This document shows positions 15,501 through 33,825 of a stretch of DNA of 64,000 bases, in pieces. Each line of letters starts with the position of its first letter. The stretch's first letter is position 1. The DNA comes from Roseiflexus sp. RS-1 (GTDB lineage: Bacteria > Chloroflexota > Chloroflexia > Chloroflexales > Roseiflexaceae): assembly GCF_000016665.1 (NCBI RefSeq), contig NC_009523.1:1302001-1366000 (forward strand). The letters are read 5' to 3'. The notes below the pieces were generated by a model that made no database searches, was not told where the DNA came from, and saw nothing but the letters and a program-made list of their open reading frames with translations. A program made the position numbers and the translations under genes.

Positions 15501-18500
15501 GCGGATCGTCGCCACGTCCGAAGCGCACACTGCCGACCCGCTGGTGCTGGCGGATTTCACGAACACTGGGTTTGACGGCTTGACAGGTTCCTGGAATACA
15601 AACGTCTTCACATACCCGACCTTTGTGCGCATCTCAGGAAGTGCAACCGAAAGTGGCGGGGGGTACATCACCTTCGCTTCGCCGGTTGACCTCTCCAATC
15701 ACACGGCGCTGGCGCTTTCGGCACGCCTGGTCGCCGGGAACGGCGCCGACAACATCGATGTGCATCTCCAGGACGCCGACGGCACCAACTGGCGCTGGCG
15801 CTTCCCTGCGAGCAGTTTCAACTTCTCGACATTCACGCTCGTGCCACAGAGCCTGATCGGACCCAACAGCACAACCATCGCCGCCGGTACAACACCGGGT
15901 CTCAACCTGCGCAACATCACCCGGCTCGAAATCCGCGGCGACAATGGCACGGCTCAGTTCGCCATCGACATCGATGCGGTCATCGCGTTCGGCAATGCGG
16001 CCGTGCCGGGCGAGATTGTGCGTTACCGGCTGATCGCCACCATTCCCGAAGGCACATCGCCGAACCTGCAACTGCACGACCGCATTCCCTTCGGCATGCG
16101 CTTCATCAACGACGATACCGTGCGCGTGGCGTTTGTCAGCAATAGCGGCGTCATCACTTCGACAAGCGCTGGTGCGCAGGTTCCCGCGCTCAGCGGCGCA
16201 GGATTGAATATCACCGGCAACCAGGATAGCGTCATCGGGTTGAGCCTGGCAGTCGGAAGCGGCAACGGGCTGGCAATCGGCGAAGGAACGGCATTTGACG
16301 GCAATGTTTCCAACACCAGCACCGTTACTACTGACACCGACACGTTCAACGACGGGAGTGATGTGTACTTCCGCCTGGGGAACGTCGTGAACAACGATAA
16401 CGACGATGATCTGGAGTTTGTGGTTGTCGAGTTCAATGCTCAGGTGCTCAATACATTCAGCGATGGTAACCAGAGCGGCAGGCAACTGAACAACGATTTC
16501 CGCTACCTCCGCAGCGGCATCCAGGTTGGCACGACGTCTGTGACCAACGATGTCAATCGCGTCACCGTCGTCGAGCCGCAGATCAACAATCTGAGCAAGA
16601 CGATCAGCGGCGCGCCTCCGGCAGACGCTGGTGACGTGTTCACTTACACGCTGCGCTTCGCCAACGGCGTCGCATGGCCCTCCTCGCCGGCTGTGCCGGT
16701 GCGCGTTGCCACGACCGGCAACATCGCCGGGTTCAATCCGACTGGCGGCTTCGGCGGAACCGGTCAGTTCACCAATGCGCCCGCAACCGTCGATGGCGTG
16801 ACGTTGAATGTCGGTGACCGCATCCTGGTGCGCAGCCAGGCGAACCCGGCGCAGAACGGCGTCTATACGCTGGTCTTCATCGACCCGTTCACCGGCGCGC
16901 GCACCTGGGATCGCGCTACCGACCTGGACAGCAACGCTGAACTGGCGATCGGCTACCGCGTGATCGTTCAGGAAGGCTCGCTGGCAGGCAGAACCTACTA
17001 CCTGGATGAGCCGTTGCCGTCGTCGATCAACGCCGGACCGATCCTCTGGCGCGACGTCGATCCGGCGCTGACGGTCGCAGTCGCAACGACCGGCAATCTG
17101 GGCGGCGGAACGTTCGACGCGACCGGCGGAACGCTCGGACGCGGCACGCTCAGCACAACGGCAACCGTCATCGACGGAGTAACGGTCAACGCAACCAACT
17201 TCCCGGTCGGCACACGCATTCTCGTCAAAAACCAGACGACCCAAAGCCAGAACGGCATCTACCGCGTGACCGGTTTCAGCGGATCGACCATGAACCTCGA
17301 ACGGGTGGCTGAATTCGACTCTCGCCCGGAAGCGATTGACGGCACGCAGGTGTACGTCACCGGCGGAACGATCAACGCCGGGCGCACGTTCGCGGTCTCA
17401 GGGGCGCCCTCTGGAACACCGATCACAACCTCACTGACATTCGTGCTGGTCGATCAGGTGACCGCCTTCGATGTGACTGTCTACGACCAGTTGCCGCCGA
17501 CCCTTGAACTCCTCGGCGTGCAGATCGACGCGCCGACGGGGACGACGGCGACCAATGGTTCAACTCTGGGTGTCGGCGGGGTGATCAGTTACACGCTCGA
17601 CCGGCTCGACTCAGTCCAGGACATTACCTCCGGCAGAACCGATGTGGTCGTCACGGCGACGGTGCGCGTGGTTGCGGGAACGGTCGCCGGCGCGCAGATC
17701 ACCAATACGGCGCGGGTGCAGTACACCAGTCTCCCCGGCGAGCGCGGCACAATCGCCAACCCCACCGGATCGAGCGTCGCAGCCGGAACTGCCGGAACGC
17801 AGAACGGGGAGCGCACCGGCGGCGACGTGCCCAACCCGATCAACAACTCGTCGCCATCGATCAACACCATTCGGAACAACTACAGCGTTGGCGCAATCGC
17901 GCTGAACCGCCTGGCGCAACCGTCCTTCGACAAGCAGTTCCAGGGTGGTTCGATCTCCGATGACGACACCAGCGTGCCGGGCACGTCCGGCATCAGCGTC
18001 ACCGTTGGCGAAGCGGTACTCTACGACCTGCTCGTCACCATGCCCGAAGGAACCACCAACAATCTGCGGGTGGTCGATGCCGTTCCCGATGGGATGCGCT
18101 TCGACACGTCGTTCAACGGCGTCGGCTATCAGATCGTTACTTCTGCTGGCGGTCTGCTCACCGACAACTTCAGCAATCCGGCGGCGGTTGCATCGCCGAC
18201 CCTGACCGTCTCCGGCACAGGCACGCTCGGCGACGATGGTGTGGACGCGCTGTTCACGTTCGGGAATGTCACGGTTGATGATGACAACAACCCGAACAAC
18301 AATGCCTTCATCATCCGCGTGCGCCTGATTGTGACGAACACAACGGCGAACCAGAGCGGCGCAACCCGCGCCAACGGCGGTGCGCTGCGCTACAACGATG
18401 GGTACAGCGGCGCGGATGTGACACTGCGCGATCCGACCGAGCCGCAGGTGACGGTTGTCGAGCCGACGCCATCGATCCTGAAGTCGGTCAGCGGCGCGGC

Positions 18501-21500
18501 AGCCGACGCCGGCGACCCGATCACTTACACGATCCGTCTGGAGAACAGCGCGCCGCGCAGCGAGATGACCGCCTACGATGTGGTGATCAGCGACACGATT
18601 GCGCCCGAACTGATCAACCCGACGATTGTCGCGGTCAGCGCAACAGGCGCGCCCGTGAGCGTCGCCGACTTCGAGATCGTAACTGTTGGACCGGATCGCA
18701 TCCTGCGCACGACTGCGCCGATCACCCTGCCGCTCGGATCGACGGTGATCATCACCTTCACCGGCGACCTGACGAGCACAGTGACGACCGATCAGATCAT
18801 TACCAACCGTGCGTCGATGTTCTGGAGCAGCACTCCCGGCGCCAACCCTGATGAGCGCAATGGGAGCGGTGTTCCCAACCCGCCGGAGTGCAGCAGTCTG
18901 CCCGGCAACTGCAACCTGGACAACACGCAACTCAACAATTACGGTCTCATCTCATCGGTGACAACCACCGCCATTGCGCCGGTGGTCGTCTCGAAGTCGG
19001 TGATCGAAGGGGTGGCGCCTTCGACGAGTGGCACGAATGTCACCATCGGTGAGATCGTCACCTACCGCCTGGCGGTCAGTCTGCCGGAAGGCGTCACGAG
19101 CGGGCTGGTCATCACCGATACGCTTCCAGCAGGCATGGCGTACCTGCCGGGCAGCGCCACGCTTGTGACCGGCACGCTTGCCACGGGTGACCCGGCGCTC
19201 AGCGGCGGGCATCCGGCGGGCGCTGGCACGCTCGCCTTCAACGGCGTCTTCAGCGATCCGACCGATCCGGCGGTCACGCCGATTGGCAGCCTGCAATTCC
19301 TCAACGGAACCGACGTGCGCTTCACGTTTGATCAGATCACGTTGCCGGGCGACAACGACACCCGCAACAATACGTTCTTCATCCGCTACCAGGCGGTCGT
19401 GCTCGATGTGCCCGGCAACACCGGCTTCACCGGCAGCCAGACAACACTGACGAACAGCGGGCAATTCGATGTGCCCTCGACGCCGCAACCGCCGGTCGAC
19501 CTGTTGATCGATCCCAACGGCGCAACCGTCACCGTCGTCGAGCCGGAACTGGCGATTGCCAAGTCGGTCGCTCCGACCAGCGGCGATGCCGGCGACCCGG
19601 TGACCTACACGATCACCCTGAGCCATACGGCGCGCAGCCTGGCGGATGCCTTCGACGTGGCGATCACTGATGCGCTGCCAGCAACGATCGGCTCATCGCT
19701 CACGGCGCCGATCACGATTGCACAGGTGAATGCCACGCACTCGGTTGATGGTGATATTACCGGCAACTTTGGCGTCACGAGCAACACGCTGACGACCACG
19801 ACACCGTTTACGCTGCCGCTCAACGCAACCGTCACGGTGACGATCACCGGCGTGTTGCGGCAAAGCGTACAGCCCGGCGAGACGATCACCAATACCGTCG
19901 CTCTGACCTCCACCAGTCTGCCCGGTCTGAACCAGGACCTCAGCCCGGACACGACCGGCGTCAGCGATGGAACCGACCGCGAGCGCAGCCGCAGCGCCAG
20001 CAGCAGCGTGACGCTTTCCACCGGGCAGGGCGCGTTCAGCAAGGAGCTCTTCGCCACCAGCGCACCACATACGAGCGGCGAGGACATCACCATCGGCGAG
20101 ATCATCAGTTATACCCTGATCGTCGATCTGCCGGAAGGCACGATCCGCAACCTGGTGTTGACCGACGATCTGCCTGCGGGTCTCGACTATGAAGGGTTCA
20201 CGGTCATCACCGACGCAGCGCAGAGCGGCGGACTGCTGACGCAGGACTTCGTCGGAACCGTTCCGTCGATCACCGTGACCGGCGGCGCGGGCAGCGGCGA
20301 TGATGTCACCCTGACGTTCGATAGCGACGTTGTGGTGACGGGCGACAACAATGCGGCGAACAACCGCTTCCTGGTCGTAGTGCGCGTGCGGGCGCTCGAC
20401 GAACCGGGGATGGTCGGGCTGATCCCGCCGGGGCAGACCACCCTGACGAACACCGCAGCGATGCGCTACACCGACGGCTCGAACATCACGCGAACGTTCA
20501 CCGATACCGAAACGGTGCGCGTCGTCGAACCGCAGCTGACGATCACCAAGAATATCGTTCAGACTGTTGCAAATGCGGGTGATCCGATCACGATCACGCT
20601 GACGGTGACAAACACTGGCACATCGGATGCCTTCGATGTTGTCATTACCGACACGCTGCCACCCGATTTCGACGCTGCAACCACGACCTTCGGCGCAGCG
20701 GGAAGCGACTATCCGGCGACGTTCACCCCATCGCGCACCGGTAGCGAGGTGCGCTACGAGGGCGGACCGATCCCGGCTGGCGCGACGGTGACCTTCACCT
20801 TCCGCGTCAACCTGACCGGTACAGTGACGCCCGGCGCGACGATTGTCAACACGGCGCGCATGGCGCGTTCGACCAGTCTGCCAGGCGATGATCCGACGGA
20901 GCGGGTGCAGACGCCGGTCGACTCGTCCGACACCATGACCATCCGCAGCAACAGTCTGAGCGGCTTCGTGTATGTCGATGCCGACAACGACGGCATCTTC
21001 GACACGGGCGAAAGCGGCATCGGCGGCGTGACCATCACGCTGTCGGGAACCGATCATCTGGGCAACAGCGTGTTGCTGACGACCACGACTACGATCACTG
21101 GCTTCTACCGCTTTGACAACCTGCGTCCGGGAACCTACACGCTGGCGGAAACCCAGCCAGCCGGTTACCTGGATGGACGAGACACCATTGGCACACAGGG
21201 CGGCACGACCGGCAACGATGTGTTGAGCAACATTGTTCTGCCAGTTGACGCCTCGACCAACGGGGAGAACAACAACTTTGGCGAACTGCTGCCCGCGCGC
21301 ATCGCCGGGTTCGGGTACGAGGACGACGACAACGATGGCGTGTTCGACACGGGCGAAAGCGGCATCTCCGGCGTCACCATCACCCTGAGCGGGACCGACG
21401 ACCTGGGCAACAGCGTGCTGCTGACGACCACGACCACCGTGACCGGCTTCTACGCCTTCGACAACCTGCGTCCGGGAACCTACACGGTCAGCGAGACTCA

Positions 21501-24500
21501 GCCGACCGGCTATCTCGACGGGCGCGACACGGCAGGAACCCTCGGCGGCGACACCACGCTCAACGACCGGATCGCCAGCATCACCCTGCCTTCCGGCGTT
21601 GCCAGCCTGAACAACAACTTCGGCGAACTGCGTCCGGCGAGCCTGTCGGGACGGGTCTACCGCGACGACAACAACAATGGCAGCCTCGACGCGGGCGAGC
21701 CGGGCATCTCCGGCGTCACCATCACGCTGAGCGGGACCGACGACCTGGGCAACACGGTCACCCTGACGACGACGACCGATGCAAGCGGCGTCTACACCTT
21801 CACCAACCTGCGTCCGGGGACCTACACGGTCAGCGAGACCCAGCCGTCCGGCTATCTCGATGGCGCAGAGAGCGTCGGCAGCGCGGGCGGAAGCGTCATC
21901 ACCAACGATGTCATCGGCAACGTCACCCTGAGCGCAGGCGTTGCAGCGACCGGCTACAACTTCGGCGAACTGCTGGCGGCGCGCATCGCCGGGTTCGTGT
22001 ACGAGGACGACGACAACGATGGCGTGTTCGACACGGGCGAAAGCGGCATCTCCGGCGTCACCATCACCCTGAGCGGCACCGACGACCTGGGCAACGGCGT
22101 GCTGCTGACGACCACGACCACGATCACCGGCTTCTACGCCTTCGACAACCTGCGTCCGGGGACCTACACGGTCAGCGAGACCCAGCCGTCCGGCTATCTC
22201 GACGGACGCGACACGGCGGGAACCCTCGGCGGCGACACCACGCTCAACGACCGGATCGCCAGCATCACCCTGCCTTCCGGCGCTGCCAGCCTGAACAACA
22301 ACTTCGGCGAACTGCGTCCGGCGAGCCTGTCGGGGCGGGTCTACCGCGACGACAACAATGACGGCATCCCTGATGCAGGCGAACCGGGCATTGGCGGGGT
22401 TACCATCACCCTGACCGGAACCGACGACCTGGGCAACAGCGTGCTGCTGACGACCACGACCAGCATCACCGGGTTCTACACCTTCGACACCCTGCGTCCG
22501 GGGACCTACACGGTCAGCGAGACGCAACCAATCGCGTACAATGACGGAATTGATCGCTCTGGGACGGCAGGCGGCGACCTGATTAACGATCAGGTCAGCA
22601 ACATCGTGCTTGGCGCAGGGGTCGATGCCGTGAATTACGACTTCGGCGAACGGGGAACCTTCGTCAGCGGCATCGTCTGGATCGACACCGACCGCGACGG
22701 AACGCTCGACGGTGGTGAAAACGGACGACTCGGCGGCGTCACCGTCACGCTGTCGGGAACCGATCTCCTGGGCAACAGTGTGCTGCTGACGACCACAACG
22801 ACGATCACCGGCTTCTACATCTTTGACAACCTGCCAGCTGGCACCTATGTCATTGAGCAGACGCAGCCAACCGGCTACGGCAGTTCGACCCCCAATACCC
22901 TGAGCGTGACTGTCCCGCTCACAGGGTTGACCGATCAGAACTTCGGTGAGACCGTGAGCACCCTGAGCGGCTACGTGTATGTGGACAGCAACAACAATGG
23001 TGTGTTCGATGCGGGTGAAAGCGGCATTGGCGGCGTGACGGTCACGCTGACCGGAACTGACGTCAACGGCGTATCCGTGACTCTTACGACGTTGACCCTG
23101 GCGGATGGCAGTTACCGCTTCGAGAACCTGTTGGCGGGAACCTACACCATTAGCGAGACGCAGCCGCTGATCTATAGCGATGGGCTGGAGAGCATCGGCA
23201 CGATTGACGGAACACCCGTCGGCATGCTCGTCAGCAACGACGTGATCGGCAACATCACACTGTCAGCAGGAACCGACGGCATCAACTACAACTTTGGGGA
23301 ACTGGCTGACGCAGGGTTGGGTGACCGCGTGTGGCTCGACCGCAACGGCGACGGCGCACAGGACCCTGGTGAGTCGGGGATTGGCGGCGTGCAGGTGTAT
23401 CTCGACCTGAACAACGATGGTGTGCTTGATGCAGGCGAGCCGGTGACCACCACCAACGCGCTCGGTCAGTACTTCTTCGGCAATCTGCCGGGCGGAACGT
23501 ACACCGTGCGCGTGGATACGACCACGCTGCCGGGAGGCGTCGGCCAGACCTACGACCTGGATGGCGCAACCGTAACGCCGCATGCGGCAACTGCATCGCT
23601 GGCGGCAGGCGCGACCCGCACCGACGTGGACTTCGGCTACCGTGGAACCGCCAGCATCGGCGACCGCGTGTGGCTCGACCGCAACGGCGATGGCGTGCAG
23701 GACGCCGGTGAGCCAGGTCTGAGCGGCGTTATCGTCTACCTGGACCTGAATGGCAACGGCGTGCGTGATGCCGATGAGCCGTTTGACGCCACCGATGCGA
23801 GCGGCAACTATCTGATCGGCGGGCTGCTCGCCGGAACGTACACCGTGCGGGTGGACGCTTCAACCCTCCCCGACGGGGTCAGCGCCACCTACGATCTGGA
23901 CGGCGTCGGGACGCCTGGCGTTGTTACCGGCGTGACGCTCAGTAGCGGTCAGGCGCGCACCGACGTCGACTTCGGCTACCGTGGAACCGCCAGCATCGGC
24001 GACCGCGTGTGGAACGACGCCAACGCCAACGGCATCCAGGACGCCGGAGAAACGGGAGTCAGCGGCATTGTTGTCGCACTCTACGACTCGACCGGCACGC
24101 TGCTGATCACCACGACGACCGACCTGAACGGCAATTATCTGTTCGATAACCTGCCCGCCGGGACGTACACCGTGGGGGTTGGCGCGACGCCGGGGCGCAG
24201 CATCAGCCCGCGTGGAGCAGGAAGCGATTCGGCGCTCGACTCCGACATTGATCGGGCGACCCGGCGCAGTAACCCGATCACACTTGCCATCGGCGAGGAT
24301 CGCCGCGACATCGACATCGGTCTGTATCAACTGGCATCGGTTGGAAGCCTGGTCTGGCTCGACCGCGACCTGGACGGCATCCGCGAGGCGGATGAACCGG
24401 GGATCGGTGGCATCGAGGTACGCTTGCTACGCAGCGATGGAACGGTCGTCGCCACACAGATGACCGATGCAAATGGCTACTTCATGTTCACCGATGTCGA

Positions 24501-25035
24501 ACCGGGCGAGTACCGGATCGCGTTCAGCGTCCCATCCGGCTACTACGTCAGCCCCTTCCGGCAGGGGAACGACCGCAGCACCGACAGTGACGCGGACCCG
24601 GCAACCGGTCTGACGCCGATCTTCACCCTGACGCCAGGGCAGATCGACCCGACCTGGTTCATGGGGCTGTCGCCAATCTCACCGACCGCCATCCAGTTGA
24701 CGCGCTTCAGCGCCGAACGCGGCGCACAGGGCGTCGTCGTGCGCTGGGAGACGGCTGCGGAGTACGGAACGCGCGGCTTCTACCTGGAACGCAGCGCAAC
24801 CGGCAGCCGCAGTGATGCCGTGCGGATCACCGATCGCCTGATCCCGGCGAGGGGCAGCGTCAGCAGCGGTGCGGCATACGAGTGGAACGACACGACAGCC
24901 GCGCCGGGAACACGCTACACCTACTGGTTGATCGAAGAGACCGTCGATGGCTCGACGCACATCTACGGACCGGCGACTCTCGCATCAACGACGGGCGGCG
25001 GGTATACTGTGATGCTGCCGCTCATCGTGCGGTAG
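9535..25035 (+). CDS. Giant exported DUF11 / SD-repeat-B surface protein (5166 aa)
   Basis: ATG 9535 is chosen because AAGGAG lies 7 bp upstream and a classic signal peptide follows (MHRRSRLASLFLVLAV, Ala-rich cleavage site near residue 30). Order: an N-terminal beta-rich region (about 33-735), then DUF11-like domains to about residue 3800. From about 1274 these form six A-B pairs. Type A carries IGE...PEG; type B opens with a VVEP-like linker and has DAGD...YT. Four inserts of about 120 residues (about 737, 1043, 2389, 2515) share VATT, IDGVTLN.GDRVLVK and QNGxY, as in phage tail repeats. A lectin/CBM-like insert covers about 2001-2154. Eleven SD-repeat B (Cna-B-like) domains with DxDNDGxxD motifs cover about 3806-5040. 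The last 120 residues are a fibronectin-like module ending in VMLPLIVR. There is no LPXTG motif. A role in cell-surface adhesion or sheath formation is inferred. The gene stands alone; a 12-bp-stem hairpin follows. Confidence 0.9.
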   Translation: MHRRSRLASLFLVLAVTAASLGLLASNAVFAGGNPLPVATVNNATGLIGETVTLTVTFDNASTGTGDQTGYGPYIDLFLDTTGPDGAPSFDGLVTTGMRATYLGQPLPGMEVIPITGPTYVHPLTGQTLSVPGYGTRFQNGDTIVVLTLLFGSFTNTQPPAPIDVSLRISNLADLGTPLPVTAVAGFRYGADPLDNPGADPPIRQTTPSDANVTPTLWTLTKTYLGPEDETATGRNYPRRYRLDVDIAEGQPVTNLQITDVLANSMRITGNTAAQMSAIRYDAPGMPTEVFTPANLSGTATPAAPGGTLIYSFGDKTGVRGIDASFEFEFYIPRDTSAATPTVPQGTDSTFANNTGSSSATWTPIDTRDTSTPITITLPPNAHTLQQHSLATQKSVTPVDRNTLNPTGGAIIPGSTLLRYDIDFQVSDYFAVQNVYLEDIISDGQRLFVRTSGITSTVPTLQVENAYVTGASPTRTTIAAAPFSGTGVITYEQRFTTRGTPLSDPTSPPSGPVFTILTPAPSLSGTTYVRFDISRELIARGVSGRLVGGDIPNAGGAPQNNNPPLFGPTRGRITFYTEVKDEFSDDFPSGDRSVDQLDILRNTVPQIRGEQINTTTINNATPTVIGQATDDTAASVELPIGDRNKTIYALNGQTTNLGDPVTVQPGDLVTYRLTYRLPISSFENVQFIDFPPLPVFPVPDRLFFDASAAPGTVPGANMVSRGPGDTYLTTVNPPTTVRVATTGNMTGYNPAGIGSFSGAPSIIDGVTLANGDRVLVKDQTDARQNGVYVVVNAASGVWNRAADFDTAREITNSPLVGVTAGATNAGQHFRQSNPTFNTFNTDAITWAPFITTDAAGNSFTLNFGWHDDVDGGRRESLIDLLVTLRVADAAFANDLFLTNQLRVNEFSTNAGSQYFDEIVMFEVIRPNVTINKGIVGYNGVGLTLGGVTFNPPDGSTAFGGTPVYTATQASAIGSSDVSLLSDAGDRVRYAIVLQNEGRGDAYDVTVTDTIPADYIRPATLAAANFAVRRGDGTLLTGDVVSGTVRVATTAPLTGATYATSPNNGQFTNAPRIIDGVTLNVGDRVLVKDQSVASQNGIYVVTSVFPGVNQATLTRADDFDDDAELTGGYRVAVLGGLSSNANRAFSTPGPITLNTTPITWTDAGVSDYYAVYNPLTGVFSVTLADNYTAGNTTAPTRDDRPGGLSRGASGPASNVVAVTNGSNTVIITYDVTLGDNVEPNRQIINTATLTHVATSDGGVDDQPDPFDTAQVTIRRPTIAKTLTATEIEDSFNNRQQAVIGELITYTLTLTVPEGVMSNATLTDTLDAGLAFVDVTGVSASPALAFTGGGLPTVGATPANTTIGAGGQTITFNFGAITNSNRDNTVEETIVITYRAIVLNTSANQSGAQRNNRVEFSWVVSGQGSYALTPVEAANVTIIEPTLGVAKTLPPGVYDAGDLIDYTITFSHTAGSQGTAYDAVLTDALPIDPFGSGSLILTPTILSVTDSAGTLTTADFTLTGSNATSWTLSNPTPVDVAPGRVVTITVRGTLSNAAMPGAAITNTAFLRWTSLDGTPGQRSTHNAASTERTGDDGPGGALNDYAATGSVAFIVPTVTPGKALIATSEAHTSGSNVAIGEIVRFRIAIGGPEASVYAFSLVDRLPPGLTFLNDGSARFVFIADNNITTAGVYDVAPVSCPAISPAGVTTLADVLNPATLLSSSINCTFGDSNISSNETVNQDVYASGTDVFFRFGNLSNNDNDPGEEFIVVEFNAIVDNDTFDPNDAGNVRSNTVVARMNPPGFGAFETAPSPEVTVTVVEPNIPFNVATNNKIATPTSGDAFDVITYTVTYTNATGVTVTDAFDVRLLDVLPTDMTLITGSVAVTSSCATGITNSSAGNTVDVTVGSVPPGCSVTVTYQATLNVSVIPGQTITNTATLTYTSLPGSSGTGGFFGSTAGSGGSATGERNGSGGINDYAGSDTATVTIVAPTLAKRIVATSEAHTADPLVLADFTNTGFDGLTGSWNTNVFTYPTFVRISGSATESGGGYITFASPVDLSNHTALALSARLVAGNGADNIDVHLQDADGTNWRWRFPASSFNFSTFTLVPQSLIGPNSTTIAAGTTPGLNLRNITRLEIRGDNGTAQFAIDIDAVIAFGNAAVPGEIVRYRLIATIPEGTSPNLQLHDRIPFGMRFINDDTVRVAFVSNSGVITSTSAGAQVPALSGAGLNITGNQDSVIGLSLAVGSGNGLAIGEGTAFDGNVSNTSTVTTDTDTFNDGSDVYFRLGNVVNNDNDDDLEFVVVEFNAQVLNTFSDGNQSGRQLNNDFRYLRSGIQVGTTSVTNDVNRVTVVEPQINNLSKTISGAPPADAGDVFTYTLRFANGVAWPSSPAVPVRVATTGNIAGFNPTGGFGGTGQFTNAPATVDGVTLNVGDRILVRSQANPAQNGVYTLVFIDPFTGARTWDRATDLDSNAELAIGYRVIVQEGSLAGRTYYLDEPLPSSINAGPILWRDVDPALTVAVATTGNLGGGTFDATGGTLGRGTLSTTATVIDGVTVNATNFPVGTRILVKNQTTQSQNGIYRVTGFSGSTMNLERVAEFDSRPEAIDGTQVYVTGGTINAGRTFAVSGAPSGTPITTSLTFVLVDQVTAFDVTVYDQLPPTLELLGVQIDAPTGTTATNGSTLGVGGVISYTLDRLDSVQDITSGRTDVVVTATVRVVAGTVAGAQITNTARVQYTSLPGERGTIANPTGSSVAAGTAGTQNGERTGGDVPNPINNSSPSINTIRNNYSVGAIALNRLAQPSFDKQFQGGSISDDDTSVPGTSGISVTVGEAVLYDLLVTMPEGTTNNLRVVDAVPDGMRFDTSFNGVGYQIVTSAGGLLTDNFSNPAAVASPTLTVSGTGTLGDDGVDALFTFGNVTVDDDNNPNNNAFIIRVRLIVTNTTANQSGATRANGGALRYNDGYSGADVTLRDPTEPQVTVVEPTPSILKSVSGAAADAGDPITYTIRLENSAPRSEMTAYDVVISDTIAPELINPTIVAVSATGAPVSVADFEIVTVGPDRILRTTAPITLPLGSTVIITFTGDLTSTVTTDQIITNRASMFWSSTPGANPDERNGSGVPNPPECSSLPGNCNLDNTQLNNYGLISSVTTTAIAPVVVSKSVIEGVAPSTSGTNVTIGEIVTYRLAVSLPEGVTSGLVITDTLPAGMAYLPGSATLVTGTLATGDPALSGGHPAGAGTLAFNGVFSDPTDPAVTPIGSLQFLNGTDVRFTFDQITLPGDNDTRNNTFFIRYQAVVLDVPGNTGFTGSQTTLTNSGQFDVPSTPQPPVDLLIDPNGATVTVVEPELAIAKSVAPTSGDAGDPVTYTITLSHTARSLADAFDVAITDALPATIGSSLTAPITIAQVNATHSVDGDITGNFGVTSNTLTTTTPFTLPLNATVTVTITGVLRQSVQPGETITNTVALTSTSLPGLNQDLSPDTTGVSDGTDRERSRSASSSVTLSTGQGAFSKELFATSAPHTSGEDITIGEIISYTLIVDLPEGTIRNLVLTDDLPAGLDYEGFTVITDAAQSGGLLTQDFVGTVPSITVTGGAGSGDDVTLTFDSDVVVTGDNNAANNRFLVVVRVRALDEPGMVGLIPPGQTTLTNTAAMRYTDGSNITRTFTDTETVRVVEPQLTITKNIVQTVANAGDPITITLTVTNTGTSDAFDVVITDTLPPDFDAATTTFGAAGSDYPATFTPSRTGSEVRYEGGPIPAGATVTFTFRVNLTGTVTPGATIVNTARMARSTSLPGDDPTERVQTPVDSSDTMTIRSNSLSGFVYVDADNDGIFDTGESGIGGVTITLSGTDHLGNSVLLTTTTTITGFYRFDNLRPGTYTLAETQPAGYLDGRDTIGTQGGTTGNDVLSNIVLPVDASTNGENNNFGELLPARIAGFGYEDDDNDGVFDTGESGISGVTITLSGTDDLGNSVLLTTTTTVTGFYAFDNLRPGTYTVSETQPTGYLDGRDTAGTLGGDTTLNDRIASITLPSGVASLNNNFGELRPASLSGRVYRDDNNNGSLDAGEPGISGVTITLSGTDDLGNTVTLTTTTDASGVYTFTNLRPGTYTVSETQPSGYLDGAESVGSAGGSVITNDVIGNVTLSAGVAATGYNFGELLAARIAGFVYEDDDNDGVFDTGESGISGVTITLSGTDDLGNGVLLTTTTTITGFYAFDNLRPGTYTVSETQPSGYLDGRDTAGTLGGDTTLNDRIASITLPSGAASLNNNFGELRPASLSGRVYRDDNNDGIPDAGEPGIGGVTITLTGTDDLGNSVLLTTTTSITGFYTFDTLRPGTYTVSETQPIAYNDGIDRSGTAGGDLINDQVSNIVLGAGVDAVNYDFGERGTFVSGIVWIDTDRDGTLDGGENGRLGGVTVTLSGTDLLGNSVLLTTTTTITGFYIFDNLPAGTYVIEQTQPTGYGSSTPNTLSVTVPLTGLTDQNFGETVSTLSGYVYVDSNNNGVFDAGESGIGGVTVTLTGTDVNGVSVTLTTLTLADGSYRFENLLAGTYTISETQPLIYSDGLESIGTIDGTPVGMLVSNDVIGNITLSAGTDGINYNFGELADAGLGDRVWLDRNGDGAQDPGESGIGGVQVYLDLNNDGVLDAGEPVTTTNALGQYFFGNLPGGTYTVRVDTTTLPGGVGQTYDLDGATVTPHAATASLAAGATRTDVDFGYRGTASIGDRVWLDRNGDGVQDAGEPGLSGVIVYLDLNGNGVRDADEPFDATDASGNYLIGGLLAGTYTVRVDASTLPDGVSATYDLDGVGTPGVVTGVTLSSGQARTDVDFGYRGTASIGDRVWNDANANGIQDAGETGVSGIVVALYDSTGTLLITTTTDLNGNYLFDNLPAGTYTVGVGATPGRSISPRGAGSDSALDSDIDRATRRSNPITLAIGEDRRDIDIGLYQLASVGSLVWLDRDLDGIREADEPGIGGIEVRLLRSDGTVVATQMTDANGYFMFTDVEPGEYRIAFSVPSGYYVSPFRQGNDRSTDSDADPATGLTPIFTLTPGQIDPTWFMGLSPISPTAIQLTRFSAERGAQGVVVRWETAAEYGTRGFYLERSATGSRSDAVRITDRLIPARGSVSSGAAYEWNDTTAAPGTRYTYWLIEETVDGSTHIYGPATLASTTGGGYTVMLPLIVR
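21301..22668 (+). repeat. 684-bp in-gene duplication of two SD-repeat B domains
   Basis: The segment beginning atcgccgggttcg at 21301 recurs at 21985, an offset of 684 bp (228 codons, in frame). Each copy encodes one RIAGF.YEDDDNDG domain followed by one SLSGRVYRDDNN domain. Long runs are identical at DNA level, including third codon positions, pointing to recent duplication or gene conversion. The second domains of the two copies have diverged more. Confidence 0.85.
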
Positions 25036-26231: not shown

Positions 26232-26245
26232 ATCAAACGATTGAT
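26232..26245. promoter_or_regulatory. Candidate TetR operator
   Basis: ATCAAACGATTGAT, an imperfect palindrome (12 of 14 positions symmetric) placed about +6 to +19 from the predicted transcription start. Position and symmetry fit autoregulation by the TetR protein encoded next. No experimental support is available. Confidence 0.5.
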
Positions 26246-26313
26246 TGAATACTGCGACGAACACTCCCTGTTCTCCGCCTTTTCCTGCACAGCGCCAGGA
26301 ATCCGGCAGGGAA

Positions 26314-27003
26314 ATGTCGCCGCACAGATCCTGCCCTATGGTGTCAACGCCTGACAACACCGGCGGAACCGCTGATCGCATTGTGGCTATTGCCGCGACG
26401 CTCTTCGCAGAGCACGGCTACCACGGTCTTTCGATGCGCGCGCTGGCAGCGGCTGTCGGGTTGAATGTTGCGACGATCCATTACCACATCAGCAGCAAGC
26501 AAGAACTCTACCGGATGGTATTCCGGCGATTGGCGGAACGCGAGCATGCCGTGATCGCAGCCCACACCCGGCATGTCTCGGACGATGATATTGCCCATCC
26601 CGCTACGTTTCTCCGGCGGTTGTACGACCTGGTCGATGCGCTGGTCGATCTGACCATCGAACAGCCGGAAACGCCGCGTCTCTGGCTGCGTCGCTGGCTG
26701 GAACAGGACGAGTCGCCGGCTGCAATCGAGGCGGAAGTGTCGCTGCCGCTGTACGATATGGCGCTCGATCTGCTGGAACGGGCGCAGGCAGCAGGAACGA
26801 TCCGATCATCAGGCGTCGATCTGCGCATGATGCTGACCGGTTTCATCTGGATACTCTACGGCTACTTCGCTGGCAGTCCGCTCGACGCAAGCGGCGCTCG
26901 CGTCGATCCCTTGCATCCCGAACAGATAGCGGCATTCAAACGGTTCCTGCACGCCTATACCGCGCGTATGCTCGGCTTGCCGGAGGAGCATGGCGAGCCA
27001 TGA
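26314..27003 (+). CDS. TetR-family transcriptional regulator
   Basis: A DNA-binding regulator, first gene of a five-gene operon. The N-terminal helix-turn-helix is textbook: RIVAIAATLFAEHGYHGLSM, RALAAAVGLNVATIHYHISSK, then ELYRMVF. The C-terminal part (about residues 75-229) is an all-helical ligand-binding domain of no recognised subfamily, so the inducer is unknown. The start is uncertain: ATG 26314 has AGGGA just upstream, at short spacing; ATG 26338 lacks a ribosome site but gives a standard N-terminus; a TTG at 26245 is also in frame. The strong promoter and palindrome upstream suggest autorepression and control of the transport and enzyme genes that follow. Confidence 0.9.
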   Translation: MSPHRSCPMVSTPDNTGGTADRIVAIAATLFAEHGYHGLSMRALAAAVGLNVATIHYHISSKQELYRMVFRRLAEREHAVIAAHTRHVSDDDIAHPATFLRRLYDLVDALVDLTIEQPETPRLWLRRWLEQDESPAAIEAEVSLPLYDMALDLLERAQAAGTIRSSGVDLRMMLTGFIWILYGYFAGSPLDASGARVDPLHPEQIAAFKRFLHAYTARMLGLPEEHGEP

Positions 27004-27046
27004 TCACCAGCCGATCGCTGACCGGACAGTTCAAGGAGGAACAGGG

Positions 27047-28384
27047 ATGGGAAGATTGTTCCGCTACATCACGTATTCGATGGGAAACTTCGCCAACACC
27101 ATCGCCTATCAGGTCTTCGGGAACCGCATTCAGTTCTACTATGTCGATGTTTTGGGATTGAACGCTGCTGCGGCAGGGGTCATCTGGACGATCTATGGGC
27201 TGTGGAATGCCATCAACGATCCACTGATGGGGCAACTCTCCGACCGTACCCGCACATCGATGGGACGGCGCGTACCGTATGTGCTCTTCGGCGCCGTCCC
27301 TCTCGGACTCTCCTTCTTTTTCCTGTGGACGCCGCCCGGTCAGTCGCCGTGGATGCTTGCGGCGTATTTCCTGGTTATTCTCTTCATCTTCGATACCCTC
27401 TATAGCCTGACGATCATCGCCTACAACGCCCTCTTTCCAGAGGTGGCACCGCACCTGCGCGCGCGCATCGACCTTTCCGCCGTGCGCGAGGTGCTGGCAA
27501 CCATTGCGCTTCTGCTCGCCTTCATTCTCGCGCCGATCCTCGCCGAGGGGGTCGGCTATATCTGGATGGGCGCCATTATGGGAATACTGGTGGCGGCAGG
27601 ATACCTGATCTCGATGGTCGGCGTTCGTGAAGATCTCTCGAAGATCAAGGACGACCACGTTGGATTGATCGCATCGCTGCGCATTGCGCTCTCCAGCATT
27701 CCCTTCCGCTGGTTCATCGGCGCCAACATCGCCAAAGAATATATCTGGCTCGTGCTGGCAGCCATGCTTCCTTTCTGGCGCAAATATGCTCTTGGCATCC
27801 AGGGGCAGATCGAGGTCTTCGGTATCAATCTGAGCGGCGGCGATGCCGAAGCCATCCTGCTCGGCGTCCCGATCTTACTGACCATCCCGGCGCTGCTCGC
27901 CTGGCGACCGCTCGTAGCGCGGATCGGTCCGCGCCGGTCGTGGATTATCACCAGTTTTTGTTTCATCCCCGGTTTTCTTGCGATGATTCTCGCCACCGAC
28001 TTCACTACCGGACTGATCGGCACGCTGCTGGTTGTGCCAGGTCTGGCGGGTTCAATGATCATGCCGTTCCCGCTGATCTCCGAAGTTATCGATGACGACG
28101 CAGCGCGGCATGGGTACCGGCGCGAGGGCATCTTCTTCGGCATCAACGGCGGGATCACCAAACTGGCGTTTTCAGCCCAGGGCGTGCTCTTCGCTACCGT
28201 GCTCTCACTGTCGGGGTATGTTGCCGGCAGCGAGGTTCAACCGGAAAGCGCTGCATGGGGGGTGCGTTTCCTGATCGGTGTCACACCCATCATTGCTGCG
28301 CTGCTGATCGCTTTCTTCATGTGGAAATATCCGCTCGAACGCGCCGTCGGGCGCAACCTCGCCCTTGAAAGGAGTTCACCGTGA
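27047..28384 (+). CDS. GPH-family (MFS_2) sugar/glycoside:cation symporter
   Basis: A 445-residue, 12-helix carrier of the glycoside-pentoside-hexuronide family. ATG 27047 has AAGGAGGA 6 bp upstream; an earlier in-frame start would overlap the regulator gene. Diagnostic residues: YSMGNFANTIAYQVFGNRI in helix 1, YGLWNAINDPLMGQLSDRTR (Asn/Asp of the cation site) and GRRVPYVLFGAVPLG in the first loops, and RREGIFFGINGGITKLAF in helices 9-10. Family substrates include melibiose, xylosides and glucuronides, but some members carry other polar compounds, so the enzymes downstream are the better guide. It overlaps the next start by 4 bp, showing translational coupling. Confidence 0.9.
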   Translation: MGRLFRYITYSMGNFANTIAYQVFGNRIQFYYVDVLGLNAAAAGVIWTIYGLWNAINDPLMGQLSDRTRTSMGRRVPYVLFGAVPLGLSFFFLWTPPGQSPWMLAAYFLVILFIFDTLYSLTIIAYNALFPEVAPHLRARIDLSAVREVLATIALLLAFILAPILAEGVGYIWMGAIMGILVAAGYLISMVGVREDLSKIKDDHVGLIASLRIALSSIPFRWFIGANIAKEYIWLVLAAMLPFWRKYALGIQGQIEVFGINLSGGDAEAILLGVPILLTIPALLAWRPLVARIGPRRSWIITSFCFIPGFLAMILATDFTTGLIGTLLVVPGLAGSMIMPFPLISEVIDDDAARHGYRREGIFFGINGGITKLAFSAQGVLFATVLSLSGYVAGSEVQPESAAWGVRFLIGVTPIIAALLIAFFMWKYPLERAVGRNLALERSSP

Positions 28385-29805
28385 CTATTCCGCCGATCAG
28401 CATGACGCCGGACGAAATCATGGCAACACTGCGCAGGTTCAAGGCGCACGACATGGACTGGCAGTCTGGTCGCGTCTTTGCGTATATCTATCAACCCCAC
28501 GAAACAGCAGCGGCAGTGGTTAGAGACGCTTATATGCTCTATCTCGCCGAAAACTGTCTCGACCCGACGATATTCCCCAGCATCGCACAACTGGAGCGCG
28601 ACGTGGTGCGCATGATCGCCGGTCTGCTCCAGGGCGATGAACAGGTTGCCGGCAATGTGACCGGCGGTGGCACGGAGAGTATTCTGCTGGCGGTTAAGGC
28701 TGCCCGCGATTGGGCGCGCGCTCACCGACCCCATATCGCGCAACCGGAAATGGTGCTGTCGCGGACGGCACACGCAGCATTTCACAAAGCGGCGCACTAC
28801 TTCGGCGTCAAACCGGTGGTCGTCGCGTTCGATCCGGCGACATTCGAGGCGGATGTGGCAGCAATGCGCGCGGCAATCACCGATAACACAATCCTGCTCG
28901 TGGCGTCGGCGCCATGCTATTCGCAGGGCGTTATCGATCCCGTTCCCGCAATTGCGTCGCTGGCGCGGGAGTATGGACTCCTCTGCCACGTCGATGCGTG
29001 TGTTGGCGGCATCTATCTCTCCTTTTTGCGGAAACTCGGATATGCGGTTCCTCCCTTCGATTTCAGCATTCCCGGCGTCACATCCCTCTCTGTGGACATG
29101 CACAAATACGGATATTCCGCCAAGGGCGCTTCGCTTATCCTCTACCGCGACCGCGCCCTGCGGCGGTATCAGATGTTTGCTTCGACCGACACAACCGGCT
29201 ATACCCTCATCAACCCGACGGTTCTCAGTTCGCGGTCGGCTGGACCGATTGCCGGTGCGTGGGCGATCCTGCACCACCTGGGTGAAGCGGGGTACCGGGA
29301 GATCGTAGCGACGGTGCAGGCGGCGACAGAGCGGTTGATCGCCGGCATCAACGCGATTGACGGGTTGTTTGTGCTGGGGCAGCCAGCCATGAGCATGTTT
29401 TCCTTCGCCTCGAACAACATCAATGTGTTTCATCTGGCTGATGCGTTGCGTCGGCGCGGGTGGTATCTTCAGCCGCAGTTTTCGACGCCGCTTTCGCCGC
29501 GCAATCTGCACGTCTCCGTCACGTATGGCGTTGCACACAACGTCGAGGCGCTGCTCGCCGATCTCGCCGCCTGCGTGGAAGAGGTGCGCCAGGCGCCGCC
29601 AACCGATCCGACGCTCATCCAGACACTTGTTTCTGCAATTGCGCGCGATCCATCTCCAGCAACGATCATGGAACTGATGGCGGCAATCGGTTTGCGACCG
29701 GGCGCCTTGCCGCAGGAGATGGCGCTGATCAACGATGTCCTCGATGCGTTGCCGGATGCCGTAGCAAATGAGATTGTGATCGACTTTTTCAACAATCTGT
29801 ACTGA
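28381..29805 (+). CDS. PLP-dependent decarboxylase/lyase, sphingosine-1-phosphate-lyase-like
   Basis: A 474-residue fold-type I PLP enzyme. The GTG start overlaps the carrier's stop (GTGA), with AAAGGAG upstream. Motifs: phosphate loop NVTGGGTESILLAVKAARDW, stacking His in SRTAHAAFHKAA, Asp205 in CHVDACVGG, and the Schiff-base Lys242 in SVDMHKYGYSAKGAS, which matches the DxHKYG(Y/F) signature of sphingosine-1-phosphate lyases and related group II decarboxylases. These enzymes cleave a C-C bond to give an aldehyde and an amine, or remove carboxylate. No membrane anchor is present, unlike the eukaryotic lyase. The substrate is unknown. The context (carrier, aldehyde-handling fusion enzyme, amide hydrolase) suggests a retro-aldol or decarboxylation step on an amino compound. 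Confidence 0.88.
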   Translation: MTIPPISMTPDEIMATLRRFKAHDMDWQSGRVFAYIYQPHETAAAVVRDAYMLYLAENCLDPTIFPSIAQLERDVVRMIAGLLQGDEQVAGNVTGGGTESILLAVKAARDWARAHRPHIAQPEMVLSRTAHAAFHKAAHYFGVKPVVVAFDPATFEADVAAMRAAITDNTILLVASAPCYSQGVIDPVPAIASLAREYGLLCHVDACVGGIYLSFLRKLGYAVPPFDFSIPGVTSLSVDMHKYGYSAKGASLILYRDRALRRYQMFASTDTTGYTLINPTVLSSRSAGPIAGAWAILHHLGEAGYREIVATVQAATERLIAGINAIDGLFVLGQPAMSMFSFASNNINVFHLADALRRRGWYLQPQFSTPLSPRNLHVSVTYGVAHNVEALLADLAACVEEVRQAPPTDPTLIQTLVSAIARDPSPATIMELMAAIGLRPGALPQEMALINDVLDALPDAVANEIVIDFFNNLY

Positions 29806-29845
29806 AGATATCGTTTCGGTTCAGTTGAGACCGAAGGGGAAGACC

Positions 29846-32389
29846 ATGAATCGAACAACCTATCCGCAGCGCACCTGGCTCATCACCGGTTGCGCGACCG
29901 GCTTTGGCGCCCGCCTGGCACAGCAAGTGATCGATCGCGGGGAGCGCGTCGTCGCTACCGACCGCGCTGTTGACGCGCTGGCGCATCTGCACACCGACGA
30001 TCCTGCGCGCTTGCTGCGTCTGGCGATGGATGTCACCGACCCGGATGCCGTCCGTCGCGCTGTTGAGATGGCGGTGGCGCGCTTCGAGCGTATCGATGTG
30101 CTGGTCAACAACGCTGGTCTCGGACACGGCGGACCGCTGGAGGAAGCACGAGTGGACGATATTCGCCGCCTCTTCGATGTGAATATCATTGGTATGATGA
30201 TCGTGACGCAGGCGGTTCTTCCTCATATGCGCGCATCTGGTGGCGGGTATATTATCAATATCTCGTCGGACAGCGGCGTCGTGGGATTTCCCTTCCAGGG
30301 CGTCTACACCGCCACCAAGCATGCCGTCGAAGGTTTCTCCGACTGTCTCTATCAGGAAGTAACCCCCTTCGGCATCCGTGTATCGGTCATCCAGCCATGC
30401 GGCATGTTCAAAACCGACATGCCCGCCAGTACGATCACCGCTGCCAGAGCCGCGATCCGTCCTGACAGCCCGTACTATGCCCGTGCCACCCGCATGGCGG
30501 ACGCGCTCGCCGCTGCCTGGGAGCAGAGCAGTGATCCGCAGGACGTGGTCGATGCGATCATCGAGGTTGCCGATGCCGATCCGCCGCCGCTGCGCCGCCG
30601 CGTCGGTCCGCCCGACCGCACCGCGCTGCCCGGTTTGCGTCAGCGGATGTCGCACGAAGAGTTCGTCACATTCATCTATCGTATGACCAGCGAAGATGTC
30701 GCGCGACCTGCCATGCCGCGCGGGCGCGTCGATGGCGGACGACTGGTGGTACGCACGCTGCGCGAAGCGGGGGTGACGCATGCCTTCACCATCGTTGGCG
30801 GACATAACTACCAGCTGGTCAATGCCTGCCGCGAAGAGGGCATCCGTGTTATCGACGTGCGCAACGAGATGCACGCCGCGCATATGGCGGATGCCTTCGC
30901 TCGCTTTACCCGCCGACCGGCGCTGCTCACCGTCGATGCCGCACCAGGTCTGGTCAACGCTATCGCCGGAATTGAAGTCGCATATGAGGCGCAGGTTCCG
31001 CTGATTATTGCCTGTGCCCAGGGGTCGCTGGCAGGGCGCGACATCGGTGTCATGCAGGCGATCGATCAACTTCGACTGTTGCGCCCGGTCACCAAATGGC
31101 AGCGCACATGTTTCGATGTGAAACGGTTGCCGGAATACACCGCCGCTGCGTTGCGTCACGCAACAACGGGCCGCCCCGGTCCGACGTTTCTCGACTTTCC
31201 GCTGGAAGTGATGCAGGCGATGGTGGACGAAGATGCCGTGACCTTTCCACGCAACTATCGTGTGACGACGGGACCAGCAGGAGATCCGGCACTGGTGCGC
31301 CGGGCGCTTGACCTGATTCGACGCGCACGACGGCCGCTCCTGATCGTCGGCAGCGGCGTCTGGTGGGCACACGGCGACGACGAACTGCGTCGCTTCGTCG
31401 AGACAACCGGCATCCCTGTGCTCAGTCGCAACCTGGCGCGCGGCATCATCCCCGATGACCACCCGCTTTCAGCCGGGTTCTATCCCACGCCAGCTGCGAT
31501 GGCAGACGCTTTCCTGGTGATCGGGACACGTCTCGACTGGACGATTGGATACGGGCGTTTTCCCCTCTTCAACCTGGACGCTCCCGTCGTTCAGGTAGAT
31601 ATTCACGCTGAAAGCATCGGCAAAACGCGACCGATCGATGTTGGGATTATTGGTGATGCGGCGCAGGTGCTGCGACAACTCAACGACCTCGTTGCGGCGG
31701 GCGGGGAGTGGGCAATGGAAGCGGCGTGGCCCCCCATGGCACACGGGAGCATTGCCATGATGCGTCAGGAAACTGCGGCTGCCGCAAACCTTCCAGCCCG
31801 CCCGTCCGACCGCCCCATGCATTCGATCCAGTTGATGCAGGCGCTGGCAACATGCCTGCCGCGTGAGGCGATCAAAGTGGTGGACGGCGGTTACAGCGCG
31901 GCGTTTGCGATTCAGTATCTCGATGCCACCGTTCCTGGTGGGGTGACGTGGGTGGGCAGCACCGGACATATCGGGGTGGGATTGGGTTTTGCCATCGGCG
32001 CCAGACTGGCACATCCCGACAGCCCGGTGGTGGCGATCATGGGTGATGGCGCTTTTGGGCTATGTGGACTGGAGTTCGATACTGCAGTGCGCCACCAGCT
32101 GCCGATTATCGTGGTGATCGCCAACGACGAAGGGTGGGGTGAGACGCGCGATGGACAACGGCGACGGTGGGGCGATGCGGCAGTGATCGGTACGCATCTG
32201 GGACCACGCCGTTACGACGAACTGGCGCGGGCGCTCGGCGGCTATGGCGAACGTGTCGAACGACCGGAGGAGATTGCGCCCGCCATTCGACGCGCCTTCG
32301 AGTCGGGAGTGCCGGCGATCATCGATGTGCATACCGATCCGGAACAGCGCAGCACGGCAGTCGCCGGATTGCCCTGGATCGTTGAGTGA
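29846..32389 (+). CDS. Fusion: short-chain dehydrogenase + thiamine-diphosphate enzyme
   Basis: An 847-residue protein from ATG 29846 (AGGGGAAGA upstream). Residues 1-275 form a complete classical SDR: TGCATGFG at 14-21, NNAG at 88-91, Ser140/141, and YTATK with Tyr154 and Lys158. Residues 295-847 form a complete ThDP enzyme of the acetolactate synthase / benzoylformate decarboxylase superfamily: the Pyr-domain catalytic Glu341 in DVRNEMHAAHMADAFAR, a central domain, and the PP-domain metal motif from GDGAFG (about 733) to the Asn in IANDEGWG (about 759). No frameshift lies between the halves. Both active sites look intact, so the protein should both form or cleave a carbon-carbon bond through ThDP and reduce or oxidise a carbonyl with NAD(P). 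I know of no standard enzyme with this layout; the substrate is unknown. Confidence 0.9.
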   Translation: MNRTTYPQRTWLITGCATGFGARLAQQVIDRGERVVATDRAVDALAHLHTDDPARLLRLAMDVTDPDAVRRAVEMAVARFERIDVLVNNAGLGHGGPLEEARVDDIRRLFDVNIIGMMIVTQAVLPHMRASGGGYIINISSDSGVVGFPFQGVYTATKHAVEGFSDCLYQEVTPFGIRVSVIQPCGMFKTDMPASTITAARAAIRPDSPYYARATRMADALAAAWEQSSDPQDVVDAIIEVADADPPPLRRRVGPPDRTALPGLRQRMSHEEFVTFIYRMTSEDVARPAMPRGRVDGGRLVVRTLREAGVTHAFTIVGGHNYQLVNACREEGIRVIDVRNEMHAAHMADAFARFTRRPALLTVDAAPGLVNAIAGIEVAYEAQVPLIIACAQGSLAGRDIGVMQAIDQLRLLRPVTKWQRTCFDVKRLPEYTAAALRHATTGRPGPTFLDFPLEVMQAMVDEDAVTFPRNYRVTTGPAGDPALVRRALDLIRRARRPLLIVGSGVWWAHGDDELRRFVETTGIPVLSRNLARGIIPDDHPLSAGFYPTPAAMADAFLVIGTRLDWTIGYGRFPLFNLDAPVVQVDIHAESIGKTRPIDVGIIGDAAQVLRQLNDLVAAGGEWAMEAAWPPMAHGSIAMMRQETAAAANLPARPSDRPMHSIQLMQALATCLPREAIKVVDGGYSAAFAIQYLDATVPGGVTWVGSTGHIGVGLGFAIGARLAHPDSPVVAIMGDGAFGLCGLEFDTAVRHQLPIIVVIANDEGWGETRDGQRRRWGDAAVIGTHLGPRRYDELARALGGYGERVERPEEIAPAIRRAFESGVPAIIDVHTDPEQRSTAVAGLPWIVE

Positions 32390-32400
32390 AGGGAGAAACC

Positions 32401-33825
32401 ATGCCACCTGGAGCAGCATCAGAGACGCTTCACACGGTTATCTCGCATCTACGCACACAGCAGCAATCGCTTCTGGAGGCGCTGCACGAGATTCTCTCGA
32501 TTCCCAGTGTCAGCATGGATCCGGCGCACACCGCAGATATGACAACTGCTGCACAGTGGCTGGCAGACTATCTGCGACGCATCGGCATGGATCATACCGC
32601 GATCATCGCCGACGATGGGCATCCGATGGTCATCAGCGAGTGGTTAGGAGCAGGCAATACGGCGCCAACGTTGCTGATCTACGGGCACTACGATGTGCAA
32701 CCTGCCGATCCGACGGATGCCTGGTACACGCCGCCTTTCGTTCCAACAGTGAGAAACAACGCCATGTATGCCCGCGGCGCGTCTGATGATAAGGGGCAGG
32801 TTATGGCGGCAATCGCTGCGCTCGAGGCATGGCTGCATGTGACCGGGAGATTGCCGGTGAATGTCAGACTGATCATCGAGGGTGAAGAAGAAACGTCCAG
32901 CGTGGCGCTGCGGCGTTTTGTTCGCACGCAACCGGAACGTCTGCAATGCGATGCCGTGATGATCATCGACTCGACAATGTTTACCCCGCAGCAACCGCTC
33001 ATCCTGTACGGAACGCGGGGGAACTGCTACCTGGAGATCACGGTTCGCGGACCTGCGGGTGACCTGCACTCAGGAACCTTTGGCGGCGCAGTAGAAAACC
33101 CTTTCAATGTTCTGGTCCGGTTGCTGGCGGCGCTTCAGGATGGCGTAACCCGCCGCGTGCGCGTGCCAGGTTTTTATGACCGGGTGCGCGCCGTCGATGA
33201 TACCGAACGGCGTCTGCTGGCATCACTGCCACTTGATGACGCTGCTCTTCTGAGGATGACCGGCGTACCGGCGCTCGCAGGCGAAGCCGGCTTTTCCGCT
33301 ATCGAACGCGCCAGCATTCGACCCACCCTGGATATTCACGGCATCGGCGGCGGTTTCACCGGACCAGGGAAGAAAACCGTCATCCCGGCACAGGCGACGG
33401 CGAAAATCTCAATGCGGCTTGTTCCATACCAGGCGCCGCACGAAATCGTACAGTTCGTCACCCGGTTTTTGCAGGAGCAGGCGCCGCCAACCGTTACACT
33501 CGATGTGAAGGTGCTGAGTGCATCCCATCCTGTCCTCATCGATTATCGCGCCGGAGCGATACAGGCTGCATCGCGGGCGTTCGAGGCAGCCTTCGGTGCG
33601 CCGGCAGCCTTCACGATCGGCGGGGGCACATTGCCAGTTGCCGCCGATCTGCAGGAGGCGCTGCGGGCGCCGCTGGTCATAACCGGTTTCGGCTTGCCCG
33701 ACGACAATATGCATGCGCCGAACGAAAAACTGAACCTCGACTGCTTTGCGCGCGGGTGCGAAATGATCGCCCACTACCTGGCGCTGCTGGCGGCGTCTTC
33801 TGGGGCGCAACCCTCTGCTCCCTGA
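32401..33825 (+). CDS. M20-family metallopeptidase / dipeptidase
   Basis: A 474-residue member of the ArgE/DapE/CPG2 family. ATG 32401 follows AAGGGAGAA and lies 11 bp after the fusion gene. Zinc ligands and catalytic residues are visible: GHYDVQP (His96, Asp98), ARGASDDKGQ (Asp129/130), IEGEEETSS (general base near Glu163), and the late His in DDNMHAPNEKL. HSGTFGGAVENPFNVL marks the inserted dimerisation domain. The pattern is that of CNDP-like dipeptidases, which hydrolyse dipeptides or N-acyl and N-carbamoyl amino acids in the cytoplasm. As the last gene of the operon it could release the amine that the PLP enzyme uses. It ends 3 bp from the convergent permease gene; no terminator fits between. 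Confidence 0.93.
   Translation: MPPGAASETLHTVISHLRTQQQSLLEALHEILSIPSVSMDPAHTADMTTAAQWLADYLRRIGMDHTAIIADDGHPMVISEWLGAGNTAPTLLIYGHYDVQPADPTDAWYTPPFVPTVRNNAMYARGASDDKGQVMAAIAALEAWLHVTGRLPVNVRLIIEGEEETSSVALRRFVRTQPERLQCDAVMIIDSTMFTPQQPLILYGTRGNCYLEITVRGPAGDLHSGTFGGAVENPFNVLVRLLAALQDGVTRRVRVPGFYDRVRAVDDTERRLLASLPLDDAALLRMTGVPALAGEAGFSAIERASIRPTLDIHGIGGGFTGPGKKTVIPAQATAKISMRLVPYQAPHEIVQFVTRFLQEQAPPTVTLDVKVLSASHPVLIDYRAGAIQAASRAFEAAFGAPAAFTIGGGTLPVAADLQEALRAPLVITGFGLPDDNMHAPNEKLNLDCFARGCEMIAHYLALLAASSGAQPSAP

Follow-up and report, generated by a model that had tools for sequence, protein, structure and literature searches.

Introduction

The location of an SDR gene beside that of a ThDP-dependent carboligase is a known functional pairing. 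The closest described systems are the following: (i) the 2,3-butanediol pair (acetolactate synthase AlsS/BudB together with the acetoin/diacetyl reductase BudC), in which a ThDP carboligase is likewise accompanied by an SDR that reduces the type of product formed; (ii) benzaldehyde lyase (BAL, PDB 2ag0) and the enzyme encoded by a Rhodococcus pRLCBG43 gene, which carry the same Gly-X-His, Gln, Glu and GDG...N pattern as the protein described here; and (iii) 2-hydroxyacyl-CoA lyase/synthase (HACL) and oxalyl-CoA decarboxylase (OXC), which belong to the same three-domain ThDP family and, among solved structures, give the best scores. On many Pantoea plasmids, alsS adjoins the gene of a diacetyl reductase that forms acetoin and, as a parallel not yet characterised, the ThDP gene of the BAL clade adjoins an SDR gene in pRLCBG43.

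In the hot-spring bacterium Roseiflexus sp. RS-1, one unbroken gene joins both families, an alcohol/carbonyl dehydrogenase (SDR) and a C–C lyase/ligase dependent on vitamin B1 (ThDP), in one protein. The window, i.e. the whole stretch of DNA analysed, comprises 64,000 nucleotides (NC_009523.1, positions 1,302,001 to 1,366,000, forward strand). The fusion is real, conserved and under selection and, as far as searched, uncharacterised: the original prediction knew of no characterised enzyme of this kind, and none was found in the PDB or in the literature searched. The features of the locus are:

26245..27003, + strand: TetR-family regulator, first gene of the operon (Pfam; orthologues in loci L038, L065, L072 and L074–L076)
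26990..28384, + strand: MFS_2 (GPH-type) transporter (Pfam; PDB relatives)
28381..29805, + strand: PLP enzyme of the sphingosine-1-phosphate lyase (SPL) family, with two phosphate-site changes, A103 to Tyr and H129 to Asp (StSPL numbering)
29834..29840, + strand: AAGGGGA, a Shine–Dalgarno-like ribosome-binding site upstream of the fusion ATG
29846..32389, + strand: SDR–ThDP fusion gene, 847 aa (open frame; SDR and three TPP_enzyme Pfam domains; also fused in L038/L074 and L075)
29846..30610, + strand: SDR half, residues 1–255 (Pfam; TGxxxGxG 14–21, Asp39, N113, S141, Y154, K158)
30611..30721, + strand: junction, residues 256–292, made up of the SDR's own C-terminal tail and a short linker (alignment against the unfused SDR and ThDP proteins of genome G414)
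30722..32386, + strand: ThDP half, residues 293–847 (GGH with H320, E341, Q404, GDG 733–735, N760, conserved C-terminus PWIVE)
32386..33825, + strand: M20-family dipeptidase (Pfam; NCBIfam NF006053 over cut-off)

The window also contains an open frame of 5183 codons (9484-25035, + strand).

The fusion gene and its two halves

The prediction that a single frame encodes a full SDR and a full ThDP enzyme is borne out. From 29846 to 32389 (+), 847 codons run without a stop, both halves lie inside a single polypeptide, and all the catalytic motifs were found; in the alignment, Tyr154, Lys158, Glu341 and GDG(733–735)...N760 fall exactly where they had been placed. No stop separates the halves in RS-1, and the frame is intact in two more assemblies (a closed chromosome and a MAG); hence, the fusion is not the product of chance or of a sequencing error. 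Pfam assigns residues 11–195 to adh_short (E 4e-51), and residues 296–410, 484–612 and 680–828 to TPP_enzyme_N, M and C, respectively, each far above its cut-off. Both halves are under purifying selection, with dN/dS values of about 0.06–0.14 in the SDR and ThDP halves alike at a dS near saturation, and the junction is the least conserved segment of the fusion (dN/dS 0.06–0.28). AlphaFold2, run on the fusion with one relative in the input, returned a model of low confidence (mean pLDDT of 41) that was set aside.

The SDR half has the complete classical set of motifs: TGCATGFG 14–21, NNAG 88–91, N113, S141, Y154 and K158 (PF00106, E 4e-51). As a rule, an Asp at the end of strand 2 marks an SDR of the NAD(H) type. 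Here, strand 2 ends with Asp39, which is the same in all five copies, as is the catalytic tetrad, and this residue points to an SDR half of the NAD(H) type. Among NCBIfam models, PRK08263 (239 bits) and PRK06180 (232 bits) align with the full SDR half, which lies under their curated cut-offs of 290 and 298, respectively.

As for the ThDP half, E341, GDG 733–735, N760 and the three Pfam domains place it in the ThDP decarboxylase/carboligase superfamily (PF02776/00205/02775), but it reaches no NCBIfam cut-off, those of the acetolactate synthase models included. By maximum-likelihood phylogeny, the ThDP halves of the three fusions make up one clade (100/100), which is adjoined by a pair of proteins encoded by separate genes (100/98), and this five-member clade stands apart from both HACL and BAL on a stem of 1.08 changes per column. 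Due to this long stem, residue analogies to BAL or to acetolactate synthases are weak guides. The equivalents of His29, Glu50 and Gln113 of BAL are H320, E341 and Q404; GGH, Glu341 and Gln404 are, however, widespread in the superfamily, and a match to the BAL pattern does not make the ThDP half a BAL. Nor does the tree group them, the partner of BAL being the Rhodococcus protein (L079). The earlier description "acetolactate-synthase-like" is, in consequence, valid at the level of the superfamily only, as the ThDP half belongs to a clade of its own and scores under every NCBIfam cut-off.

Distribution and origin of the fusion

The search for other SDR–ThDP fusions and their neighbours, proposed together with the original prediction, revealed two in Chloroflexus, both at the same position of the operon: (i) an uninterrupted fusion, 74% identical to that of RS-1, in a closed chromosome of 5,258,541 bp (G118); and (ii) another, 78% identical, in a MAG (G404/SKYG63). 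By halves, identity to RS-1 amounts to 65–72% for the SDR and 79–81% for the ThDP enzyme. At E 1e-130, the 158 genomes of the class yield only three fusions, two genomes in which the genes are separate, and a single truncated copy. Elsewhere in the 400 sampled Chloroflexota genomes, the best matches are ThDP enzymes which cover the ThDP half only (35–44% identity), while a scan of the genome collection for close relatives gave, besides RS-1, the fusion of SKYG63 named above and one stray fragment. In the plasmid search, only unfused SDR/ThDP neighbours of low identity occur among the matches listed; no fusion was seen outside Chloroflexales in the Chloroflexota sample and the plasmids. An 858-aa frame of G172 (L088) was considered as a second fusion and rejected: its first ~300 residues have no Pfam match and are probably a frame overrun.

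In two other Chloroflexaceae genera (G414 and G405), the SDR and the ThDP enzyme are encoded by separate, adjacent genes on the same strand, in the same order as in the fusion, from which it follows that the fusion is the derived state. These separate proteins (SDR of 280 aa in G414 and 257 aa in G405; ThDP enzyme of 585 and 575 aa, respectively) are 51–58% (SDR) and 60–62% (ThDP) identical to the fused halves. In the fused proteins, the C-terminal tail of the SDR is retained and a short, poorly conserved linker leads into the ThDP enzyme. The fusion would thus have arisen through the joining of two neighbouring operon genes. Both gene pairs stand behind TetR and MFS genes and, in G405, the M20 gene which comes after the SDR and ThDP genes (L072 1695-3079) is split into two frames, by a frameshift or as a pseudogene.

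In two Chloroflexus genomes (G198 and G267; L065 and L066), the operon occupies the same locus but has no fusion gene: SPL is directly followed by M20, in L065 with ~50 bases between them (4708-4760). Since the operon and three downstream genes (90–94% identical) are common to Chloroflexus with and without the fusion, the gene was lost or gained in place.

Partial copies were also observed. In a Roseiflexus genome (G335:C107; L010 1498-2829), a DUF4143-like fragment, located immediately downstream of SPL, takes the place of the first 460 residues; either recombination has led to decay of the gene or the MAG is misassembled. A Caldilineales MAG (L039 5556-5834) contains a stray piece that matches residues 338-430 of the fusion at 87% identity, with the RNEM motif of the fused type and one in-frame TAA; it is either the remnant of a transferred gene or a chimera.

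Operon context

The operon consists of five genes (TetR, MFS_2, SPL-like PLP enzyme, fusion and M20) that overlap or nearly abut. They are conserved together, and the fusion lies in the same operon in the closed Chloroflexus genome and in the Chloroflexus MAG; this operon context, which the original prediction does not mention (nor does it mention the relatives with unfused halves), matters for the function of the fusion.

The closest PDB relatives of the transporter are the MFSD2A lysophosphatidylcholine symporters (73 bits), ahead of MelB (51 bits). This likeness is weak evidence of a lipid substrate, because the one other bacterial MFS_2 protein compared, beside an SPL in G419, likewise prefers MFSD2A over MelB. 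The G419 locus (L068 6306-9243), where an S1P-lyase-family gene adjoins an MFS_2 gene, is a second pairing of both families.

The PLP enzyme scores 317 bits against the Symbiobacterium SPL, versus 98 bits against MfnA. In SPL, the PLP site comprises K311, H310, D274, C276, H201, G168, T169 and S353, and the phosphate of the substrate is bound by A/T103, Y105, N126, H/Q129 and K317 (PMC6148460). Every alignable residue of that PLP-site list is kept in the operon enzyme. All six operon copies carry Tyr at 103 and Asp at 129 in the phosphate site, and the second SPL of RS-1, at 3.226 Mb (C1:3225972-3227174), has the canonical residues. Owing to these two conserved substitutions, the substrate of the operon PLP enzyme is probably not sphingosine-1-phosphate; from the same positions, we infer that it may act on no 1-phosphate at all.

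The M20 protein passes the cut-off of the dipeptidase model PRK08201. Its more probable start, as read from the sequence, is the ATG at 32401, located after AAGGGAG, rather than the GTG at 32386.

Proposed function and alternative explanations

Our preferred reading, with a probability of roughly 0.45, is that the fusion may be an NAD(H)-linked bifunctional enzyme that forms or cleaves acyloins within an inducible import-and-breakdown operon. Glu341 would activate ThDP, whose ylide would then attack a carbonyl and make or break the C–C bond in a 2-hydroxycarbonyl compound of the acyloin type, while the SDR half would convert between hydroxyl and carbonyl, either in this compound or in the participating aldehyde. 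Two directions can be envisaged: (i) reductive, in which the SDR half would use NADH to reduce the acyloin or aldehyde so produced; and (ii) catabolic, in which it would oxidise a diol, and the acyloin thus obtained would be cleaved by the ThDP half. The operon, presumably inducible, suggests that an amino compound containing an amide is imported and broken down: MFS_2 would import the substrate, M20 would hydrolyse an amide or peptide bond, and the SPL-like PLP lyase would cleave an amino compound. The aldehyde from this cleavage, or the matching hydroxycarbonyl, would be a likely substrate of the fusion.

Other readings have to be weighed. The ThDP half might be an enzyme of the HACL/synthase or OXC type that splits a 2-hydroxyacyl-CoA into formyl-CoA and an aldehyde, the latter being reduced by the SDR half. 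In phytosphingosine breakdown, S1P lyase precedes 2-hydroxyacyl-CoA lyase. The SPL-family neighbour fits this pathway and the transporter resembles lysolipid symporters; besides, the closest solved structures are HACL and OXC (about 297 bits), the NCBIfam models of HACL and OXC give about 301 bits (HACL cut-off 600), and the actinobacterial HACL model is the second best for the ThDP protein of G414. Nevertheless, the residues argue against it. ApbHACL binds the acyl-CoA through R260 and R400 (PMC11271303), and actinobacterial HACL binds CoA via R273-S274 (PMC8760513). Both ApbHACL positions were located by counting residues along HACL chains, the RS motif agreeing with the actinobacterial R273-S274 (PMC8760513); the residue-by-residue comparison was confined to HACL chains other than the actinobacterial one (7pt1). 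The R260 position is Pro in RS-1 and of Pro/Ser/Ala type in the clade, none of whose five members has Arg there; the R400 position is Ile in RS-1, again without Arg in any of the five; and GGH takes the place of the GIP/GFP loop that HACL carries near ThDP. The Arg test discriminates, since both Arg are present in three of the Chloroflexota proteins compared (L012, L014 and L033), which the tree groups with HACL. As RuHACL (6xn8) itself has Leu at R400, the case against HACL rests on R260 and the loop. A sphingolipid breakdown pathway that includes 2-hydroxyacyl-CoA lyase was also considered; the missing CoA-binding Arg and the changed phosphate site of SPL make it less likely, and an HACL- or OXC-type fusion is, in our view, quite unlikely.

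Far more improbable is an ordinary acetolactate synthase in a protein that makes acetoin or 2,3-butanediol from pyruvate. It is true that the top NCBIfam match of the ThDP half, PRK05858, bears that label and that both families also occur together in the Bud pathway, but its 389 bits fall short of the cut-off of 587, the acetolactate synthase model TIGR00118 gives 262 bits against a cut-off of 538, Pfam finds no acetolactate decarboxylase in the operon, and neighbours such as a PLP lyase, an M20 protein and a transporter do not fit a pyruvate pathway. The two halves might also carry out unrelated or loosely linked steps, the fusion securing only equal amounts or stability, with no channelling. 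That relatives work with separate genes, that the operon tolerates gene loss, and that the junction is short and poorly conserved would all agree with this; nevertheless, the adjacency and identical order in five of five loci indicate linked steps, and both halves are intact in three genomes, which leaves this reading rather unlikely.

Returning to the acyloin-type bifunctional enzyme, we infer its acyloin chemistry, its use of NAD(H) and its link to the PLP lyase. The coupling between SPL and the fusion is not obligatory, because SPL and SDR–ThDP genes are also found apart: no SPL adjoins the SDR–ThDP pair in G405 and G414, and the SPL operon of G198 and G267 lacks SDR–ThDP, so the product of SPL need not be the substrate of the fusion. 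A bolder extension, in which an altered SPL-like enzyme would split an imported, non-phosphorylated amino-alcohol or hydroxy-amino compound and an NAD(H)-SDR/ThDP fusion of a new subfamily would directly channel the aldehyde or acyloin, is unlikely as a complete new pathway.

Comparison with known systems

The fusion is a natural, thermophile-derived combination of carboligase/lyase and reductase, which is of interest for diols and hydroxyketones, and its operon points to a branch of the S1P-lyase family that is as yet uncharacterised. As close relatives keep both enzymes separate, the effect of the fusion is directly testable.

With respect to the systems described above, HACL differs from the fusion in its CoA-binding Arg residue(s), its GIP/GFP loop and its separate clade. 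BAL, which is unfused, and the Rhodococcus enzyme form a clade of their own (100/99) outside that of the fusion, and at the Rhodococcus and Rhizobium loci the ThDP gene comes before the SDR gene, the opposite of the order in the fusion. AlsS/BudB and BudC are, in turn, unfused and act on a small pyruvate-derived substrate; identity between the Pantoea pair and the fusion is only about 28%, and the fusion sits in a different type of operon.
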